Shown here piece by piece: positions 57,556 to 64,000 of a DNA stretch of 64,000 nucleotides (the stretch's first letter is position 1; each line of letters opens with the position of its first letter). The notes beneath the pieces are model-generated. The model worked only from the letters and a program-made list of their open reading frames with translations, did no database searches and was not told where the DNA came from. The DNA comes from Polynucleobacter asymbioticus (GTDB lineage Bacteria; Pseudomonadota; Gammaproteobacteria; Burkholderiales; Burkholderiaceae). The DNA is taken from positions 1,184,821 through 1,248,820 of the forward strand of contig NZ_CP061297.1 in assembly GCF_018687575.1 (NCBI RefSeq), given 5' to 3'. Position numbers and translations under genes: made by a program.

Positions 57556-57632
<77 letters not shown>

Positions 57633-57746: not shown

Positions 57747-58319
57747 CTAAAAATGAGCTTTCCAAGGTAGCTCAAAATCATCTACGAATTGAGACATGAC
57801 TATATGTGGGGGTCGTGGATAAAGTGTTCCAAGCCTCTTCATTAGTAACTCAAGCATTTTTTCAGCCTCAACCCTTCTGGGTACCGTAAAGGCGTTCATC
57901 TCATCTATCTCAAGATTCTGGTTTTCGTTTTGAATATGAATACGATTTCGGAGGCTCACCAGCTTTCCAAGATAGTTATAAACATTGGGGTCGCTTGTTT
58001 GTAGAAGATTAAGCTCCTCGATTAACTTAATCTTTTTATCCATGTTATAGGACTTTCTATTCCTCAACTTCTCCAAATTTTCACTCGATAATCCGTCAAT
58101 ACCCTCTCGAGTAAAAAGTTTTGACCTACCAATAAAGTCATAAATTATGGCTTCACAAATGGAAACAAGAATTACGGTTATCGGCTTCTCAAGAAACCCT
58201 TTTTGTTGAACTGGGAGACCCTCTCTCGAAATATAAAGAGCCCTCAAAACATCAAGGTTGTAGTGAATGTTGTCACCGAGCTTGAAGCTACCAATAAAAG
58301 AGCTTGAGACCTTGAACAT
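57747..58319 (-). CDS. HEPN-like hypothetical protein
   Basis: 190 residues, mostly helical. LVSLRNRIHIQN near residue 127 resembles the R-x-R/N-x-H motif of HEPN-like domains, which often act as RNases or as structural partners in defence and toxin systems. No membrane segments. The remainder is not recognised. Alone on its strand, downstream of nothing related, ending just before the tRNA-side terminator. The HEPN assignment rests on this motif and helical character only. Confidence 0.6.
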   Translation of the reverse strand: MFKVSSSFIGSFKLGDNIHYNLDVLRALYISREGLPVQQKGFLEKPITVILVSICEAIIYDFIGRSKLFTREGIDGLSSENLEKLRNRKSYNMDKKIKLIEELNLLQTSDPNVYNYLGKLVSLRNRIHIQNENQNLEIDEMNAFTVPRRVEAEKMLELLMKRLGTLYPRPPHIVMSQFVDDFELPWKAHF

Positions 58320-58389
58320 ATTCAGGTGGATAGTTGGTTAATCTTCAATCATAATAACTTTGTTACTAAAAATTAAATCTAATTCATCC

Positions 58390-58805
58390 ATGAGAAAAAT
58401 CCATCTTTACATAGCTTTAACCAGCCTCCTACTCATATTAGGTGGATGTAATCGTCCCATCGACTTAACGGGAACATGGAAATTGGATACGGAAAAAACA
58501 ACATCCTCTGAGAGTCTTAAAAAGTGGATGAACTACCTTAAAGAAAATTCAAACGACAAAATGGCTGAGGATTACAAAAAATTGTTGAGAATACTGGAAC
58601 CCTTATGGGGTCCATTGATATTAAGGACAACAAATTTCTATTTGGTGGCTATTCGTGTGAAGTCGTAAAGTTTAGTAAAACAGAGGGGGCTCGATGTCTG
58701 GATCTAGGTACCAAGGAACAAAAATATCTAGGATTCGAGGTTGAGTCAAACGATCTATACATCTACCTGACACCCACCCTACCACCATTCATATACAAAA
58801 AATAA
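58390..58805 (+). pseudogene. Frameshifted small lipoprotein gene
   Basis: The frame from ATG 58390 gives a lipoprotein signal (IALTSLLLILGGC, lipobox LGGC) and then LTGTWKLDTEKT, a beginning typical of small lipocalin-like or stress lipoproteins. It leaves frame near 58600 and stops at 58668. A second frame from about 58605 continues with a credible beta-rich C-terminus (GSIDIKDNKFLFGGYSCEVVK) to 58805. Joining them needs a -1 shift around CCCTTATGGGG; no classical slippery heptamer is in frame there. Decay or a sequencing error is more likely than programmed frameshifting. Confidence 0.65.
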
Positions 58806-58819
58806 ACGGACTCTAAATC

Positions 58820-59155
58820 ATGTGGATTTTAATCACCCTCGGAATGTTGAGCCTACTATTAATTGGCTCATCCATAGATCTAGCTTTTTACAGATCGAAA
58901 GATGAAACTGGATCAGAGAAAATTATTCAATTCATCAAAACAATTATTGTTCAGATAATTATTTCAGCCATCATTCTCGTAGCTTCAGGCTACTTGATGA
59001 TTTCACTTGAAGAAGCAAACGCTATTCGAGATACAACAAGCAATACACCAGAATTTTTTAGAGCCATCTTCAAAGGTATTGGGTGTGTTGTTGGATTGGG
59101 ATTCCTCTATTACGCTTTCATCAAACAACGAGCTGTTGTTAAGGGTGAGGATTAA
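58820..59155 (+). CDS. Small membrane protein of unknown function
   Basis: 111 residues with three predicted membrane helices: about 1-25, 38-65 and 83-103. The loops are short and charged (YRSKDETGSEK; SLEEANAIRDTTSN). No family recognised. It follows the broken lipoprotein gene by 14 bases, so the two may have formed one unit, and its end overlaps the end of the convergent recombinase gene by 17 bases. Confidence 0.65.
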   Translation: MWILITLGMLSLLLIGSSIDLAFYRSKDETGSEKIIQFIKTIIVQIIISAIILVASGYLMISLEEANAIRDTTSNTPEFFRAIFKGIGCVVGLGFLYYAFIKQRAVVKGED

Positions 59156-59807
59156 CTAGTAAGGCTCTCATCGAGGAATAGTTCAGCTTAATATCCATTT
59201 CACCGTTAAGCCACCTATGAATAGCCAACATTGATTCACCGTTGGCTTTTTTCTTTTTCATTTCAGCTATTAACTTTTGTTCTTTAAGGTTGGGAACCTT
59301 TTTACCCTTAACCACATTAAATCCAAACCCTCGTCGACCACCAACGAAGTAACCCTGACTTTTTCTCATTTGCTTCACTTCGCTTATTCGTGAAGCAATT
59401 CTTTCTCGTTCGAAGGAAGCAAAAGCTGAAAGGATTGTGAAAATAATAGCCCCAACACCGTTTCCAGTGACATCCCCTCCAAGGTCAATTGAATGGACAC
59501 TACAGTTTCGCTCCTTGAGTAAATGAAGCGTATTCAAAGCATCTCGTGTGTTACGGAAGCCTCTATCGAGCTTTGGGAAAATTAAAATGTCACCCGACTG
59601 AATTACATCAAGCAATTTCGAGCCCTCAGGTCGACTATTAAATTCAAGTCCACCACTAACCCCTCTCTCGACAAATACACAGCTCTCTTCAAGGCTTAAG
59701 CCTCTCGACAAAGCGTAACTAGTAACTTGCTTAATTTGGGCTTCGAGTGAATCACCCTCATTAGCCTGTTGAATCGTTGAAACCCGAACATAACCATAAA
59801 CAGCCAT
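59139..59807 (-). CDS. Serine recombinase (resolvase/invertase family)
   Basis: 222 residues. N-terminal catalytic domain with YGYVRVS giving the nucleophile S10, then SLEAQIKQV, DILIFPKLDRGFRN (with the active-site arginine pattern), and AFASFERERIASRISE leading into the long E helix. The C-terminal part (GRRGFGF, then AIHRWLNG and MRALLVNP) is a recombinase-type DNA-binding tail. Such enzymes resolve, invert or integrate DNA at short sites. It points away from an intergenic gap that contains a perfect-arm dyad. Confidence 0.9.
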   Translation of the reverse strand: MAVYGYVRVSTIQQANEGDSLEAQIKQVTSYALSRGLSLEESCVFVERGVSGGLEFNSRPEGSKLLDVIQSGDILIFPKLDRGFRNTRDALNTLHLLKERNCSVHSIDLGGDVTGNGVGAIIFTILSAFASFERERIASRISEVKQMRKSQGYFVGGRRGFGFNVVKGKKVPNLKEQKLIAEMKKKKANGESMLAIHRWLNGEMDIKLNYSSMRALLVNPHP

Positions 59808-59865: not shown

Positions 59866-59880
59866 CAACAACGATTGTTG
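59866..59880. repeat. Inverted repeat upstream of the serine recombinase
   Basis: CAACAA (59866-59871) and TTGTTG (59875-59880) with a 3-base spacer lie 59 bases upstream of the recombinase start, in the gap to the next gene. An eight-base palindrome TCGATCGA (59827-59834) lies between. Either could be part of a recombination or operator site. Function unproven. Confidence 0.4.
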
Positions 59881-59931
59881 GTTAGATACATCTTTCCTTC
59901 AATTTGTAATATTGATAGACTTACTTTAATT

Positions 59932-60387
59932 ATGAAAAATATACCTTGTGAAGACTTTTGGAATTTAGTTGTAAAACCAACGATTGATGAGTTTCTTGAA
60001 AACCCAAATTCTTTTCAGAGAACTGTTTTAGCCGTTTGGTCACTAGATTCAATGGTTAGTCATATGTCTTATGAGAACAAATACAATCCAAACAGTCTAA
60101 ATGAAGTAGACTTCAAAAATAAATTGGCTGTTGAGGTGAAGACATTTAACTCCATAAGAGAAGCCTCAAACTCTCTGAAACACGCTGTCAGGAATTCAAA
60201 TTCTCAAACCGAAGGTTCAAATTCAATTGAAATAAGAGAGCGAGGATGGGGAGAGGCTGAGTGGGGTGTTGACGAATTTGGGGGAACCCCAATACCTCTA
60301 GTTAATTTTAAAACCGGTAGTTCATCAAGCCTAAAATACTCAATTGATGATTTTTCAAGCTGGATTCAAATAAAAATTTTCAGTTAA
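59932..60387 (+). CDS. Hypothetical protein
   Basis: 151 residues from the ATG at 59932; an upstream TTG at 59875 would add 19 residues that look non-coding. The segment FNSIREASNSLKHAVRN resembles the helical ANAxKH motif found in many short uncharacterised proteins, possibly HEPN-related. The second half is polar with several aromatic residues. No membrane segments or signal. Divergent from the recombinase. Confidence 0.65.
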   Translation: MKNIPCEDFWNLVVKPTIDEFLENPNSFQRTVLAVWSLDSMVSHMSYENKYNPNSLNEVDFKNKLAVEVKTFNSIREASNSLKHAVRNSNSQTEGSNSIEIRERGWGEAEWGVDEFGGTPIPLVNFKTGSSSSLKYSIDDFSSWIQIKIFS

Positions 60388-60399
60388 TTAAACTAGTCT

Positions 60400-60651
60400 T
60401 TAGCTCAACCAAATCGGACTCAATAGAGCCAAAACAGCTATACCCATTGATATCCACTGTCCTATCCGAGCCCTCTTTTCTACACCATCAATGTGCCTTT
60501 GAAAAAGTATTTGATTTATTACCATCGCTTGAATAATCGCTCTGTGTTGAACAAAGTCGTTAATTATTGGCTCTAAAGATAGTCGACTAAGAATTTCTTT
60601 TAATTCTTCATCATTTTTTTTAGAAATTACTTCAAAATTAAATTCATTCAT
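60400..60651 (-). CDS. Small C-terminally anchored membrane protein
   Basis: 83 residues. Charged helical N-terminal part and one hydrophobic C-terminal helix (about 65-82, IGQWISMGIAVLALLSPIWL), so it is probably tail-anchored. A Shine-Dalgarno (AAAAGGA) precedes the ATG. It follows the 244-residue gene by 11 bases and is likely cotranscribed with it. No family recognised. Confidence 0.65.
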   Translation of the reverse strand: MNEFNFEVISKKNDEELKEILSRLSLEPIINDFVQHRAIIQAMVINQILFQRHIDGVEKRARIGQWISMGIAVLALLSPIWLS

Positions 60652-60662
60652 ATCTAATCCTT

Positions 60663-61397
60663 TTAAGGGAATAAACCTTTACCTACATTTTGAACAGATA
60701 AGGAAGCTTTCTTCTTGAGCCTTCCAATGATAGCTGTGATTATTCTTCTTTTTAGTTCAGCCTCTCTTGGTGGATCGTTAGGTTTTAAACGCTCTTTATC
60801 TCTCAGGATATCTAAATCCATAGCCACCTTCCAGTATGGCTTCTTAACTCCCTTTAGCTTCAGCCACTCTAAATGGTCATAAACCTTTAAAGCCCTTTCT
60901 AGACCCTCGAAGTTTGGCTGACCCTTGAATTGATATTTGGCTTTACTATTTTTTGCTTGTTGAACACCACGCTGACCCTTATGGTGTTTTATCAATAAGT
61001 CATTCAATCGCTTCTTTAAGTGTCTTTTAGGGAGGGAAAGTGGAAAACTGATTGTTAGCTGATTTTCTCCAGTAACAACATCCCCAACCTCTAGTACTCG
61101 AACAGTTGATTGGGCTACAGGGTTCGAGAATAGATTAGCCCCTCGATCACCTTCAGACCACCACTTCTGAAAATCATCCGATCGAACGTCCCCAAAATCT
61201 TGATAAAGCTTGTTCAGCTTCCCCGATCCTTCAGATTCACAACACTTCAAGTATTCCTGATTTCTCTTCAAATAAGACCACCACCAGTAATAGACAGTCT
61301 TTTTCCAAGAATCTGGATGTTTTTTCTTTGTTACACGACCAAATGTGGGGTGTTGATAGGGAAAGTTTCTCTGGATGGAATTTTTATTCTTTTTCAT
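60663..61397 (-). CDS. Island-associated protein with YWWWSYLKRN motif
   Basis: 244 residues from the ATG at 61397; an earlier ATG at 61421 would add 8. The block TVYYWWWSYLKRNQEYLKCCES followed by LYQDFGDVRSDDFQKWWSEGDRG is a distinct aromatic-rich pattern that I associate with uncharacterised proteins on proteobacterial islands and prophages. The C-terminal half is basic and helical. Function unknown. An 83-residue membrane protein gene follows it. Confidence 0.7.
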   Translation of the reverse strand: MKKNKNSIQRNFPYQHPTFGRVTKKKHPDSWKKTVYYWWWSYLKRNQEYLKCCESEGSGKLNKLYQDFGDVRSDDFQKWWSEGDRGANLFSNPVAQSTVRVLEVGDVVTGENQLTISFPLSLPKRHLKKRLNDLLIKHHKGQRGVQQAKNSKAKYQFKGQPNFEGLERALKVYDHLEWLKLKGVKKPYWKVAMDLDILRDKERLKPNDPPREAELKRRIITAIIGRLKKKASLSVQNVGKGLFP

Positions 61398-61557
61398 ACC
61401 CAAAATATAACAAATATTCATAACACTTTAAATAACTCATTTAATCACATACTCTGATTTAATTCACTTTTCTGAAATAATAGAGATATGAATTAAACGA
61501 TGTAAGTCATTGTTTTAAATCATATTTTTAATAAATTTTACTTATAGGATTAATAAC

Positions 61558-61857
61558 ATGGGAAATTTAACTGAATACTTCAATCCAGATTACGAACAGG
61601 AAGAATTTGAACGGAAACACAGATTTTTAAGTGAGATAAAAACCAAGAGAGACCATTATGAAAAATTATTAGTCGAGTTTCTTCATGACTTTGTACTTGA
61701 TGGAAAGCCTCTTTCCGAATCGTATCTAGTAGCTTATGAAGAACTTCTTGAAGATACCCAAAAAGGAAGGCTACCTTCCTCGATGTTTATTTTTGAACAT
61801 ATGGTTTTTTCTGTAGATGAACTTCCATATGACCCAGGATACGAAAACCTACATTAA
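61558..61857 (+). CDS. Hypothetical protein, acidic
   Basis: 99 residues, strongly acidic and probably helical in the first two thirds (ERKHRFLSEIKTKRDHYEKLLVEFLHDF). A weak Shine-Dalgarno (AGGAT) lies 11 bases before the ATG. The upstream gap of about 135 bases to the divergent gene is very AT-rich, without a visible element. No family recognised. Located just before the hairpin that precedes the HUH-like gene. Confidence 0.55.
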   Translation: MGNLTEYFNPDYEQEEFERKHRFLSEIKTKRDHYEKLLVEFLHDFVLDGKPLSESYLVAYEELLEDTQKGRLPSSMFIFEHMVFSVDELPYDPGYENLH

Positions 61858-61891
61858 TTTTTTTATAAATAGTTTTACGGTCGTTTTACCT

Positions 61892-61944
61892 GAGTGAGTT
61901 TTGGACTAATAGATGGACATGATCCCCTAGTCTGAAGCTCACTT
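61892..61944 (+). other. Long hairpin upstream of the HUH-like gene
   Basis: Two arms, 61894-61908 (GTGAGTTTTGGACTA) and 61928-61942 (TAGTCTGAAGCTCAC), pair over 15 positions without a mismatch if G-U pairs are allowed (12 Watson-Crick, 3 G-U); A-T and G-T pairs extend it by two. The loop has 19 bases, with CCCC at its 3' end. That CCCC can pair with GGGG at 61977-61980, which would make a pseudoknot. It lies 80 bases upstream of the HUH-like start. Candidate origin (nick site) or structured leader RNA. Confidence 0.6.
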
Positions 61945-62024
61945 TACAACTTGAAATTAAAGAACCACTTCGAGAAGGGGTATGACCTTACTTTGTCAAA
62001 AAATACTGAAATAGAAAGAATTGA

Positions 62025-62540
62025 ATGAAACCTGAATATCTAGAACCGTGGAAACAAATCTACCCGACTAAAACTGAACTAACTAAAGCTTGGTCTGATT
62101 GGTTTCAATCTAAAACTGATGAATGGGAACTATTTACTATGACTGTAGTTTTTAAGTCCGGCGGGAAAGTAGCTAGACCAGATAAATGGTGTTCTGAATA
62201 TAAAACCAGAGTTCTACAAAAAATTAGACGAGCAATTGAACCAAACCAAAAAAACCAAGAACTAGCTATACCTTTTGAGGAGTTCTTTTATTACGAGAAA
62301 GATGATTCTCCATTCTATAGAGTTTCACGGTCACATAAACCACATCACATACACTCGTTAATACCAATCAGAAAATCTCAAGTCTATCGTTTTTGGTCTA
62401 TTGATAAAAATGACTTAAAAAGGAAAATTAAGAAAGATTTAAATTCCATTAAAACTATTCAATCAGTTGATGTTGAAAGAATAAAGCCTGATCAAACTAT
62501 AGACTGGATTAGTTATATCCTAAAAGGTAAATCAATTTAG
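62025..62540 (+). CDS. HUH-endonuclease-like replication/mobilisation protein
   Basis: 171 residues. Three motifs in the order and spacing of HUH (rolling-circle Rep) endonucleases: LFTMTVV at 36-42 (motif I, usually xTLTx), the metal-binding H108-I109-H110 in KPHHIHSLIP (motif II), and Y164-I-L-K167 (motif III, catalytic tyrosine plus lysine) near the C-terminus. No helicase domain follows, so it is a minimal single-domain type. Such proteins nick DNA at a hairpin origin and stay bound through tyrosine. It could also be a transposase- or relaxase-like protein; function is inferred from motifs. Confidence 0.65.
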   Translation: MKPEYLEPWKQIYPTKTELTKAWSDWFQSKTDEWELFTMTVVFKSGGKVARPDKWCSEYKTRVLQKIRRAIEPNQKNQELAIPFEEFFYYEKDDSPFYRVSRSHKPHHIHSLIPIRKSQVYRFWSIDKNDLKRKIKKDLNSIKTIQSVDVERIKPDQTIDWISYILKGKSI

Positions 62541-63071
62541 TCTATGAAGTTTTCCGCGAGTACTGATGATGTAGTCTGAACTAAAGCTAGACCAGTTCCA
62601 GATGTAGTTGAAATACTGGTTCATGTAGAGAGGATTAATGATCGTAAAGATTGTTCCATTAAATAACCCGAATCTTTTGTACTGAAACTTAAGTTCACTA
62701 GGTTCAAAGTCTCCATCAAACTCTAGCTCTGAATTTCCGTTCTTAAACCCACTTTCTGAAACATAAAAGAATTCTTCTGTACCCGTCTTTTTCCTAGATG
62801 AACCAAGAATCGGAAGATAAGTTCTTTCATAGTCCGTTAATAGAGCCTCTTTAAGACCGATAGGAGCTTGGTTCACTTTTATTTCAAACGAGGGCTTTCC
62901 TTCGACTTGATAAAAGCCGTAGAGATCGTTTTCGTTGTTTCTCGTTGTTTTAAGACTCTCGTACAGTTCACCTGTTCGACCAGTTTTGATTAACTGTTTC
63001 AATTCCACCTTAGATATTGGTGTCGTAGATAACCGAAACATCTTTCCTTGAGCTAATAGCTTATTTTTCAT
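62532..63071 (-). CDS. Hypothetical protein convergent with the HUH-like gene
   Basis: 179 residues with a strong Shine-Dalgarno (AGGAGG) 4 bases before the ATG. The N-terminal third is basic and helical, the rest mixed alpha/beta with many Phe and Tyr (NPLYMNQYFNYIWNWSSF). No signal peptide or membrane helix. It overlaps the end of the HUH-like gene by 9 bases. Unknown function; similar placement next to Rep-like genes would suit an accessory or control protein. Confidence 0.65.
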   Translation of the reverse strand: MKNKLLAQGKMFRLSTTPISKVELKQLIKTGRTGELYESLKTTRNNENDLYGFYQVEGKPSFEIKVNQAPIGLKEALLTDYERTYLPILGSSRKKTGTEEFFYVSESGFKNGNSELEFDGDFEPSELKFQYKRFGLFNGTIFTIINPLYMNQYFNYIWNWSSFSSDYIISTRGKLHRLN

Positions 63072-63160
63072 ACTTCCTCCTGTGATCTATTTATTTCACC
63101 GAATTACTTACGTTAAAAATTAACTAAATAGAAATACCATCAAAAACACAAGGAGGGGCT

Positions 63161-63355
63161 TTGACAAAGGTCTTAAATAGAAATCAAATTTTAGGAATCA
63201 GAACTACAGAAGATTTTGTTAAGAGATTCGATTCTTTATGTAATCGACTGGGTTACAACAGAAGTGAAATCATTAGATACGCTTTAAAACGCTTTTATAA
63301 CGAGCATTTCAACAATCCAGAGGGCTTTTCGAGAGTCAGAAAGGAACTTTACTGA
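63161..63355 (+). CDS. Ribbon-helix-helix (CopG-type) DNA-binding protein
   Basis: 64 residues from a TTG start that has a perfect AGGAGG five bases upstream. A beta strand (ILGIRTTEDFVKRFDSLCNRLG) followed by NRSEIIRYALKRFYNEHF gives the ribbon-helix-helix pattern of CopG/MetJ regulators. Such proteins control plasmid copy number, conjugation or toxin-antitoxin units. Its stop overlaps the next ORF start (TGATG). Confidence 0.8.
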   Translation: MTKVLNRNQILGIRTTEDFVKRFDSLCNRLGYNRSEIIRYALKRFYNEHFNNPEGFSRVRKELY

Positions 63356-63537
63356 TGATGGGATTTTTAGAGTGGGTCGAATTTAATAAGAAGAAAAAGC
63401 AAAAGGAAGAAAAGAATGTCGGATCAATTAGCCAAGCAGGTTCAAAAAACGGGAATGTCGATATCAAAAGAGAAGCTGATCGATTTGATCAAGAAATCCC
63501 AGAACCAATCGTTTACCGTTTCTCAGACCCAAGGTAG
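63355..63537 (+). CDS. Small lysine-rich ORF coupled to the RHH gene
   Basis: 60 residues with the start overlapping the RHH stop (TGATG). Lysine-rich N-terminal third (NKKKKQKEEK) and a Pro/acidic tail. It overlaps another ORF at 63416-63562 in a different frame for 122 bases; only one may be the protein-coding one. No family recognised, so it is listed with low confidence. Confidence 0.4.
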   Translation: MMGFLEWVEFNKKKKQKEEKNVGSISQAGSKNGNVDIKREADRFDQEIPEPIVYRFSDPR

Positions 63538-63562
63538 TAAAGCGCTTGTGGTCGTCATTTAA
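63416..63562 (+). CDS. Small overlapping ORF, alternative to the previous one
   Basis: 48 residues in the frame shifted by one from the 63355 ORF. The ATG follows a GGAAG Shine-Dalgarno by 7 bases. The product has a helix-rich amphipathic N-terminus (MSDQLAKQVQKTGMSISKEKL) followed by IDLIKKSQNQSF and a hydrophobic end ALVVVI, which looks more like a natural small protein than its overlapping neighbour. It is shorter than usual cut-offs and easily missed. It ends exactly where the following convergent gene's stop lies (63563). Confidence 0.5.
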   Translation: MSDQLAKQVQKTGMSISKEKLIDLIKKSQNQSFTVSQTQGSKALVVVI

Positions 63563-64000
63563 CTAGGGATTCTTAAAGTACTTTTCAACAATCGAGTCAA
63601 ATCCACTCATAGAATGGCTAACCACACGACTTTTAGGCTTTTGAATTAAGTCGTTAACCAAAAAGACTCGACCATTCGTCTTAAGCAGCTCGGTGATCTC
63701 CTCGTAACTATCCAACACATAAAAGTAAGCACTTTCATGTTGAATACATTTATTTTTGACTACTAAAGTATTCCCAGCTGAGGTAAGTAGGAGGGTTAAA
63801 TCTTCACTGTCCTTTTTACAATTCACGCTTGGATTCACATAATAGAAACAAATATCTTTACACGTAATACCTAGCTCAGAATCCTCGTTATTAATCGTAT
63901 GAGCGTTTTTATAACTTCCACCGATTGTTAGCTTCCATTCGTCAATTGGATTTGATCTTGAAGAAAAAGATACAAAAGCGAGTGATAGGAATAGCAGTCT
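63563..64000 (-). CDS. Exported Cys-containing protein, N-terminally truncated by window
   Basis: The frame is open from the stop at 63563 to the window end (base 64000), so the true start is outside; a GTG at 63838 is only an internal codon. The visible start RLLFLSLAFVSFSS is a signal peptide end, then IDEWKLTIGGSYKNAHTINNEDSE, and several cysteines (ITCKDICFYY, VNCKK, NKCIQH) that could form disulfides. The C-terminus has FLVNDLIQKPKSRVVSHSMSGFDSIVEKYF. Probably periplasmic; not recognised as a named family. Confidence 0.6.
   Translation of the reverse strand, partial: RLLFLSLAFVSFSSRSNPIDEWKLTIGGSYKNAHTINNEDSELGITCKDICFYYVNPSVNCKKDSEDLTLLLTSAGNTLVVKNKCIQHESAYFYVLDSYEEITELLKTNGRVFLVNDLIQKPKSRVVSHSMSGFDSIVEKYFKNP

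Follow-up and report, generated by a model that had tools for sequence, protein, structure and literature searches.

A 171-residue protein encoded at positions 62025 to 62540 of a 64,000-nucleotide stretch of Polynucleobacter asymbioticus DNA (contig NZ_CP061297.1, positions 1,184,821 to 1,248,820; the whole stretch is called the window here) is, with a high confidence that we estimated ourselves and only roughly, the HUH-like nickase or replication initiator of a mobile element that integrates into the chromosome. Judged from its sequence, this small protein is very probably the DNA-nicking replication starter of a family of mobile islands, and we refer to its gene as the nickase gene. We lean toward a model in which this minimal HUH endonuclease starts rolling-circle replication of its 9.3-kb element and in which the elements of this family are satellites of T4-like phages. 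We propose more tentatively, at a little under even confidence, that the satellites are tied to T4-like helpers at late transcription, with the nickase gene and a ribbon-helix-helix (RHH) gene on T4-late-type promoters, some members carrying their own T4-type sliding clamp, a protein that both serves replication and activates late transcription, along with a shortened clamp loader, and concatemers passing to headful packaging. The attachment sites, the integrase, a covarying hairpin, the T4-late-type boxes, and the clamp genes of sister elements are what point to a phage satellite rather than to a free plasmid or transposon. The window features on which this argument turns are listed below; genomes, loci, and protein families carry our own G, L, and F numbers where they must be told apart.

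61864 to 61871, plus strand: TATAAATA, T4-late-promoter-like box of the nickase gene (consensus from PMC1524935)
61894 to 61942, plus strand: candidate double-strand origin, a 15-bp covarying hairpin with arms at 61894 to 61908 and 61928 to 61942 and a loop at 61909 to 61927 that contains CATGATC (61918 to 61924)
61965 to 61980, plus strand: second small covarying hairpin, then a conserved TATGACC
62025 to 62540, plus strand: nickase gene (F0), ATG start, single-domain HUH-endonuclease-like protein of 171 amino acids (aa), in 9/9 loci
63087 to 63094, minus strand: ATAAATAG box upstream of the F5 gene
63124 to 63131, plus strand: CTAAATAG box, which precedes the RHH gene by 37 nt
63161 to 63355, plus strand: RHH (CopG-type) protein of 64 aa (F1), in 8/9 loci

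Conservation and predicted fold of the nickase

An earlier note on this DNA had described, in HUH order, a TMT motif, an HIH motif (residues 108 to 110), and a YILK motif (164 to 167) in a protein with no helicase or extra domain. The motifs lie where that note placed them in the product of the open reading frame (ORF), as TMT 38 to 40, H108-I109-H110, and Y164-I-L-K167, with W161 nearby; no family or further domain was recognized in the 171 residues. An eight-row alignment of proteins with 28 to 82% identity to the window protein has F37, T40, F43, H108, H110, W161, Y164, K167, and K169 invariant, while T38 and I109 are each retained in 7/8 rows. The ninth homologue, from G167, likewise has HIH together with the conserved Y and K. 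For the four copies closest to one another, the ratio of nonsynonymous to synonymous substitution rates (dN/dS) was 0.10 to 0.17, with dS partly saturated. This ratio and the residue conservation therefore exceed what chance would give for the gene and its motifs, and these sequence measures mark the ORF as a real gene subject to purifying selection.

A full-length homologue is present in nine of the 186 Polynucleobacter genomes searched, with two further weak fragments dropped; the nine include the window's own genome, which holds a single copy. Outside the genus, there was no match but one weak, short one in 398 genomes of the family (25 genera) and 398 genomes of the phylum (212 genera).

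The AlphaFold2 model of the protein is one domain with the beta-alpha-beta-beta-alpha-beta order expected for HUH enzymes. T40 lies on strand 34 to 43, H108 and H110 on strand 107 to 116, and Y164 in the final helix (155 to 166), which is the layout of the HUH superfamily: HxH or HxQ on a strand, motif I upstream, and the tyrosine on a later helix. The earlier note had named a fold lacking the HUH beta sheet, or H108, H110, and Y164 lying far apart and not conserved, as grounds for abandoning its reading; the sheet is predicted, and H108, H110, and Y164 are conserved in 9/9 homologues.

The HUH reading is supported in part and not proved. No Pfam, PHROGs, or NCBIfam family matches the window protein at a usable level. 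The protein had no hmmscan match to PF23343 (REP_ORF2-G2P), the nearest Pfam family of HUH replication initiators, at E values up to 5, and its own genome gave no match to that family; the protein did not reach the curated cut-off of Rep_1 (PF01446), it did not match the Y1 transposases (PF01797; the sole match in G000 is another gene, C1:78716-79042), and it matched no relaxase family. Two weak results count against the model proposed below. A profile-profile comparison, of the kind that the earlier note had proposed, gave only 14% probability (P = 0.0019) against the PF23343 set, as the best of 15 comparisons, and no fold match of the model reached an E value of 0.001. For the profile comparisons, L045 and L047 were dropped from the 16 PF23343 rows and L053, L064, and L073 from the 19 Y1 rows (part of 25 loci fetched), all being miscut or too short. 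The top PDB folds were ribosomal protein S6 and similar proteins, with no HUH enzyme among the PDB matches listed, and a BFVD search gave weak matches to viral initiators. By eye, the protein resembles PF23343 members in motif order, and the small members in L021, L033, and L034 share its W..Y..K pattern; it differs from the family in the profile results above.

T4-late-type boxes upstream of the nickase and RHH genes

Passages of Nolan et al. (2006; PMC1524935) give TATAAATA for T4 late promoters, with the first T loose in T4-like phages and CTAAATA in phage Aeh1, and a passage of PMC2984593 gives NATAAATA for cyanophage S-PM2. A TATAAATA-like octamer upstream of a gene, as in a T4-type late promoter, stands before the nickase gene in 9/9 elements (TATAAATA in five, CTAAATA in three, and GATAAATA in G005). 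CTAAATA also lies upstream of the RHH gene in 8/8, 32 to 37 nt before its start. Shuffled upstream regions would be expected to hold a box in 0.83 of the nine nickase regions and 0.88 of the eight RHH regions, and 0 of 1,000 shuffles reached the observed counts. The other element ORFs had a box in 4/87 cases versus about 6.8 expected (F3, 2/6; F4, 0/5; F6, 0/4; F13, 0/3; F14, 0/3; F28, 0/2; remaining ORFs of at least 100 aa, 2/64), and F5 had one in 3/5. Boxes were rare before chromosomal ORFs (5/115).

These counts used upstream regions of 165 nt for the nickase gene and 75 nt for all other genes, ORFs called by script, and approximate element borders for L021, L023, and L025 to L028. The nickase start of L025 was shifted 60 nt downstream by judgement, G005 (L027) was scored with GATAAATA, and the F5 genes of L021 and L027 were scored as misses despite a visible box. 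Late promoters of the T4 type lack a −35 element and are recognized by a gp55-type sigma factor together with gp45 and gp33. No TTGACA-like box was seen by eye near the boxes, but an A-rich run and one C are conserved upstream of the RHH box. We read the boxes as candidate T4-type late promoters.

For comparison, we searched 96 of the 141.5 kb of phage Melnitz, in which TATAAATA occurs nine times on the forward strand versus 4.6 expected (maximum of 30 shuffles, 8) and twice on the reverse strand versus 3.8 expected. In a 48-kb stretch of this phage, 4/6 TATAAATA copies precede, by 24 to 41 nt, genes with tail-tube, gp5-type, or baseplate annotations.

Hairpins upstream of the nickase gene

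Between the box and the start codon, four close elements have in common a 15-bp stem and a five-pair second hairpin, with 84.6% of the cells paired. Six pairs have changed on both sides (four in the stem and two in the second hairpin), versus 2.3 in shuffles (2/500) and a maximum of three in slid controls, for structures that were read from the member sequences themselves, a bias in their favor. Single-strand DNA folding gave z scores from −3.3 to 0 over eight sequences. The motif C[TA]TG[AT][AT] is found in the hairpin region of 8/9 leaders; with its presumed nick marked by a slash, C[TA]TG/[AT][AT] is, we assume, comparable to the CTTG/ATA nick site of phiX174 and pC194. We read the hairpin as a candidate double-strand origin, the alternative being a transcribed regulatory leader.

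The integrative element of the window

The earlier note had placed the gene in an AT-rich island, and the element indeed has 37% G+C compared with 47% for window positions 1 to 57500. The last 45 bp of a tRNA-Met gene recur 9,303 bp farther on, past the window end, which bounds an integrative element of 9.3 kb. Its integrase matches phrog_1 (E = 2.6e-28) and falls below the cut-off of the Pfam integrase models; the right 45-bp repeat lies outside the integrase gene. A query made of the joined flanks crosses the junction in 13 of 61 genomes (the window's own among the 61), the match in G008 covering positions 4 to 293 of 293 and the other 12 reaching at least position 203. An integrase, direct repeats at both ends, and an empty site elsewhere are thus all present, as in integrative elements. 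The remaining features are these.

57556 to 57632, plus strand: tRNA-Met (CAT), the integration target (ARAGORN)
57588 to 57632, plus strand: left attachment site, a 45-bp direct repeat; same 45-bp pair in the sister element of G167, empty site in other genomes
57747 to 58319, minus strand: cargo ORF, 190 aa, no match in the defence library
58360 to 59155, plus strand: cargo, a lipoprotein-like ORF apparently split, then a 111-aa membrane-protein-like ORF (from reading the sequence; no useful PHROGs match)
59139 to 59807, minus strand: serine recombinase with Resolvase domain (F4), in 5/9 loci
59875 to 60387, plus strand: 170-aa ORF, matching weakly a PHROGs family with no assigned function
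60400 to 60651, minus strand: 83-aa ORF, also present in G027
60663 to 61421, minus strand: 252-aa "YYWWW" protein (F3), core gene, in 6/9 loci
61558 to 61857, plus strand: 99-aa ORF, present among the nine loci in G027 alone besides the window's own
62532 to 63071, minus strand: 179-aa protein (F5), convergent with the nickase gene, in 5/9 loci
63355 to 63562, plus strand: two overlapping small frames (F2), one of 60 aa from 63355 and a 48-aa MSDQ frame at 63416 to 63562
63563 to 64000, minus strand: first stretch of the element's right part
past the window: two regulators resembling MarR, a tautomerase-like protein, and, at window-equivalent 65459 to 66778, the integrase
window-equivalent 66891 to 66935 (L010 10891 to 10935), past the window: right attachment site, second 45-bp copy

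No virion genes were found among the 15/18 element ORFs scanned in Pfam and the 15/18 scanned in PHROGs, and several ORFs match nothing. The 190-aa ORF, the only cargo ORF of this element scanned for defence, had no defence match. The lipoprotein-like cargo gene (58360 to 58805) appears to be divided over two overlapping frames. Fold searches with the F3 protein gave no useful match; a different recurring stretch (TTTAAAGTGTTA-like), perhaps an operator, precedes F3 in several elements (window positions about 61400 to 61440). Both F2 frames after the RHH gene are alike in G000, G027, and G167.

The earlier note had further suggested that the island carries its own nicking enzyme and may be an undescribed replicating or mobilized element. 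The gene does lie inside a precisely bounded integrative element, and no description of such elements was found in the titles, abstract openings, and passages surveyed in the open-licence PMC literature; the nicking activity itself is a prediction from sequence.

Sister elements and their cargo

The sister elements are located at tRNA-Met, at tRNA-Lys, or behind glmS. The element of G167 shares its site and its 45-bp repeats (8,759 bp) with that of the window but carries different cargo. G040 has 17-bp repeats 4,775 bp apart, one of them inside tRNA-Met, and G051 may also use tRNA-Met, the one sign being 20 nt that match the right flank of G000. The elements of G029, G074, G121, and G005 lie directly behind glmS; L023, L025, L026, and L027 have in common an ORF of 82 to 91 aa (F9) at the glmS junction, and no F6-type integrase was found in the fetched stretch of these four loci.

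In G027, 48-bp repeats lie 6,813 bp apart, and the element is in tandem with another that ends in a full tRNA-Lys. This second element (L080 1188 to 10688) uses the same tRNA-Lys, and two unlike HUH elements occupy one attachment site. Its HUH protein (173 aa; L080 5243 to 5764, equal to L021 18243 to 18764) is above the PF23343 cut-off, and CTAAATA occurs about 12 nt upstream of its start.

With ORFs called by script and some loci stopping short of one or both element ends, the nine loci contain the nickase gene in nine cases, the RHH gene in eight, the F2 frame in seven, F3 in six, the serine recombinase and F5 in five each, an F6-type integrase in four, the clamp loader in three, and the clamp in two. 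A seventh F3 copy, that of G029, sits in L002. Four sister elements carry defence genes as cargo: ZorA, ZorB, and ZorC (Zorya proteins) in G051 (L028 927 to 5388), type III restriction and methylase genes in G121, a type ISP enzyme and PDC-S18 in G074, and a C5 methylase and Mrr in G167.

T4-type clamp and clamp loader genes in sister elements

In T4, according to a passage of PMC1524935, the gp45 clamp is a helper of the late sigma factor gp55. Two clamps of the sister elements match phrog_223 (E = 1e-40 and 1.9e-36) and are also above the PF09116 cut-off, and three loaders match phrog_168 (E = 2.8e-47, 4.3e-44, and 2.7e-43) with intact nucleotide-binding motifs. The family resembles T4-like phages, as these appear in passages of PMC1524935 and PMC2984593, in its TATAAATA, NATAAATA, and CTAAATA boxes and, in some members, in the gp45-type clamp and the gp44-type loader with nucleotide-binding motifs, but here the boxes and clamp genes belong to integrated islands and the final third of the loader is missing. 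The element genes scanned, which are part of all element genes, included no gp55, gp33, or polymerase. The early-ending loaders of L025, L026, and L027 (F14) might act as an inhibitor or adaptor of a helper's loader.

Proposed model and alternatives

We propose the following sequence of events, of which the helper, nicking, and packaging steps are inferred; the late-type boxes and the clamp genes are indirect signs of dependence on a helper. On helper infection, the helper's gp55-type late sigma factor, with the gp45 clamp, would transcribe both the nickase gene and the RHH gene. Once excised, the circle would be nicked in or beside the hairpin loop, at C[TA]TG/[AT][AT], helper or host polymerase would produce concatemers, and these would be packed by the helper's headful mechanism, so that the element would need no packaging genes of its own. 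CopG is the copy-number repressor of pMV158, and the RHH protein may by analogy serve as copy-number repressor here.

Several results speak against this satellite model. No helper phage was seen, nor was induction, a circular excised form, or packaged DNA. Searches for the nickase in 50,697 phage records and 72,556 plasmid records gave no match, and neither did pattern scans of viral_contigs. The box could instead belong to the host's own promoters, columns other than the box are conserved before the RHH gene as well, and the 9/9 and 8/8 counts are not independent events because the rows within a family are related; CTAAATA was not raised in the searched part of phage Melnitz (9 versus 12.8 expected). 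Pair types in the hairpins were no more numerous than in shuffles (426/500), two stems in the four distant elements were weaker (3 changed pairs versus 1.3, 27/500, with slid controls up to 2), and G005 folds with a z score of 0. C[TA]TG[AT][AT] is a weak motif, with a second copy in three leaders and none in G040. Clamp genes occur in 2/9 loci and loader genes in 3/9, the window's own element having neither; the loaders run for about 215 residues and stop at position 209 of the 314-position profile; identity to phage proteins, among the matches listed, was only 31 to 33% (clamp) and 37 to 39% (loader), and no close viral contig was found. Since the window's element has no clamp gene, no helper was seen, a host promoter is possible, and the rows are related, our confidence in the whole model is not far above even.

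The alternative that survives best, though we consider it unlikely, is a plasmid-like element that replicates autonomously as a rolling circle after excision, from host promoters and under an RHH repressor, with no phage helper and with the sister clamp genes as chance cargo. An RHH repressor and an HUH initiator with the origin upstream are the arrangement of pMV158; the element has MarR-type regulators, and the TATAAA in its box is close to a sigma-70 −10 element. As a sigma-70 box, however, the CTAAATAG form is poor, yet all eight RHH genes (8/8) are preceded by an unvarying CTAAATA. The rarity of the boxes before chromosomal ORFs also argues against this life style, for which T4-type clamp and loader genes in small elements would be odd.

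Less likely again is an integrative mobilizable element in which the HUH protein acts as a small relaxase with the RHH protein as accessory factor, and the circle is nicked at an origin of transfer (oriT) and moved by the conjugative system of another element. RHH partners of relaxosomes are known, and HUH and RHH genes beside a covarying hairpin in an element with an integrase would fit, the hairpin being a possible oriT. A length of 171 aa is small for a relaxase, however; no relaxase family matched, no plasmid record held the protein, and the T4-type clamp genes and late-type boxes would be left unexplained.

We give very little weight to a decaying defence-type genomic island, immobile and with core genes that are relics. 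One lipoprotein-like cargo ORF looks split, but the nickase is under purifying selection, the integrase frames are full length, the 45-bp repeats are identical in two genomes, and G000 and G167 hold different cargo at an identical site. Least probable of all is that the protein is no nickase but another ferredoxin-like DNA- or RNA-binding protein with incidental conserved His and Tyr, as the S6-like best PDB folds, the lack of an HUH enzyme among the matches listed, and the weak profile comparison would allow, since the invariant residues include three motifs in HUH order, placed on the strand and helix where an HUH enzyme would have them, and the neighboring G027 element encodes a second protein that matches PF23343 with a similar HxH ... 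W..Y..K layout.

Relation to known satellites

The satellite model has its closest parallels in two Vibrio systems. In passages of PMC10803314, the PICMI of Vibrionaceae are small chromosomal islands with an integrase, their own replication gene, no capsid-remodelling genes, and antiphage cargo, as the elements described here appear to be; their helper is a virulent phage, and concatemeric DNA consistent with rolling-circle replication is packaged. The PICMI lie next to fis with a core of integrase, AlpA, and primase, whereas the present elements, found at tRNA-Met, tRNA-Lys, or glmS, encode an HUH-like initiator together with an RHH protein; no AlpA or primase match was found among the ORFs scanned of the window's element, whose site is tRNA-Met. 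The PLE, satellites of Vibrio cholerae phage ICP1, are similar to our model in passages of PMC7145576 in having a satellite-encoded initiator expressed on infection, a need for helper functions in replication, and a virulent helper. Those passages describe the PLE initiator RepA as a RepA_N protein that acts with iterons, and the core replisome of ICP1 as unlike that of T4-like phages, which sets the PLE apart. Tycheposons of Methylophilaceae (passages of PMC10872708) share with the present family the tRNA-Met site, a tyrosine recombinase, cargo islands in freshwater bacteria, and glmS as a border gene, but they carry nitrogen, thiamine, and heme cargo, and those passages mention neither an HUH protein nor a T4-type promoter.

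According to a passage of PMC10803314, published in 2024, only one satellite family before PICMI, namely PLE, counted as having virulent phages as its known helpers. If our model is correct, freshwater Polynucleobacter would hold another satellite design, in which a nickase initiates replication and the switch to late genes in the helper is the sensor, and the detection of T4-like infection by a satellite would become testable. Zorya and restriction genes would also have a means of passing from strain to strain. The analysis adds a very small HUH-like protein that matched no named family, and, if the model holds, a single-domain HUH initiator would be joined to the biology of T4.
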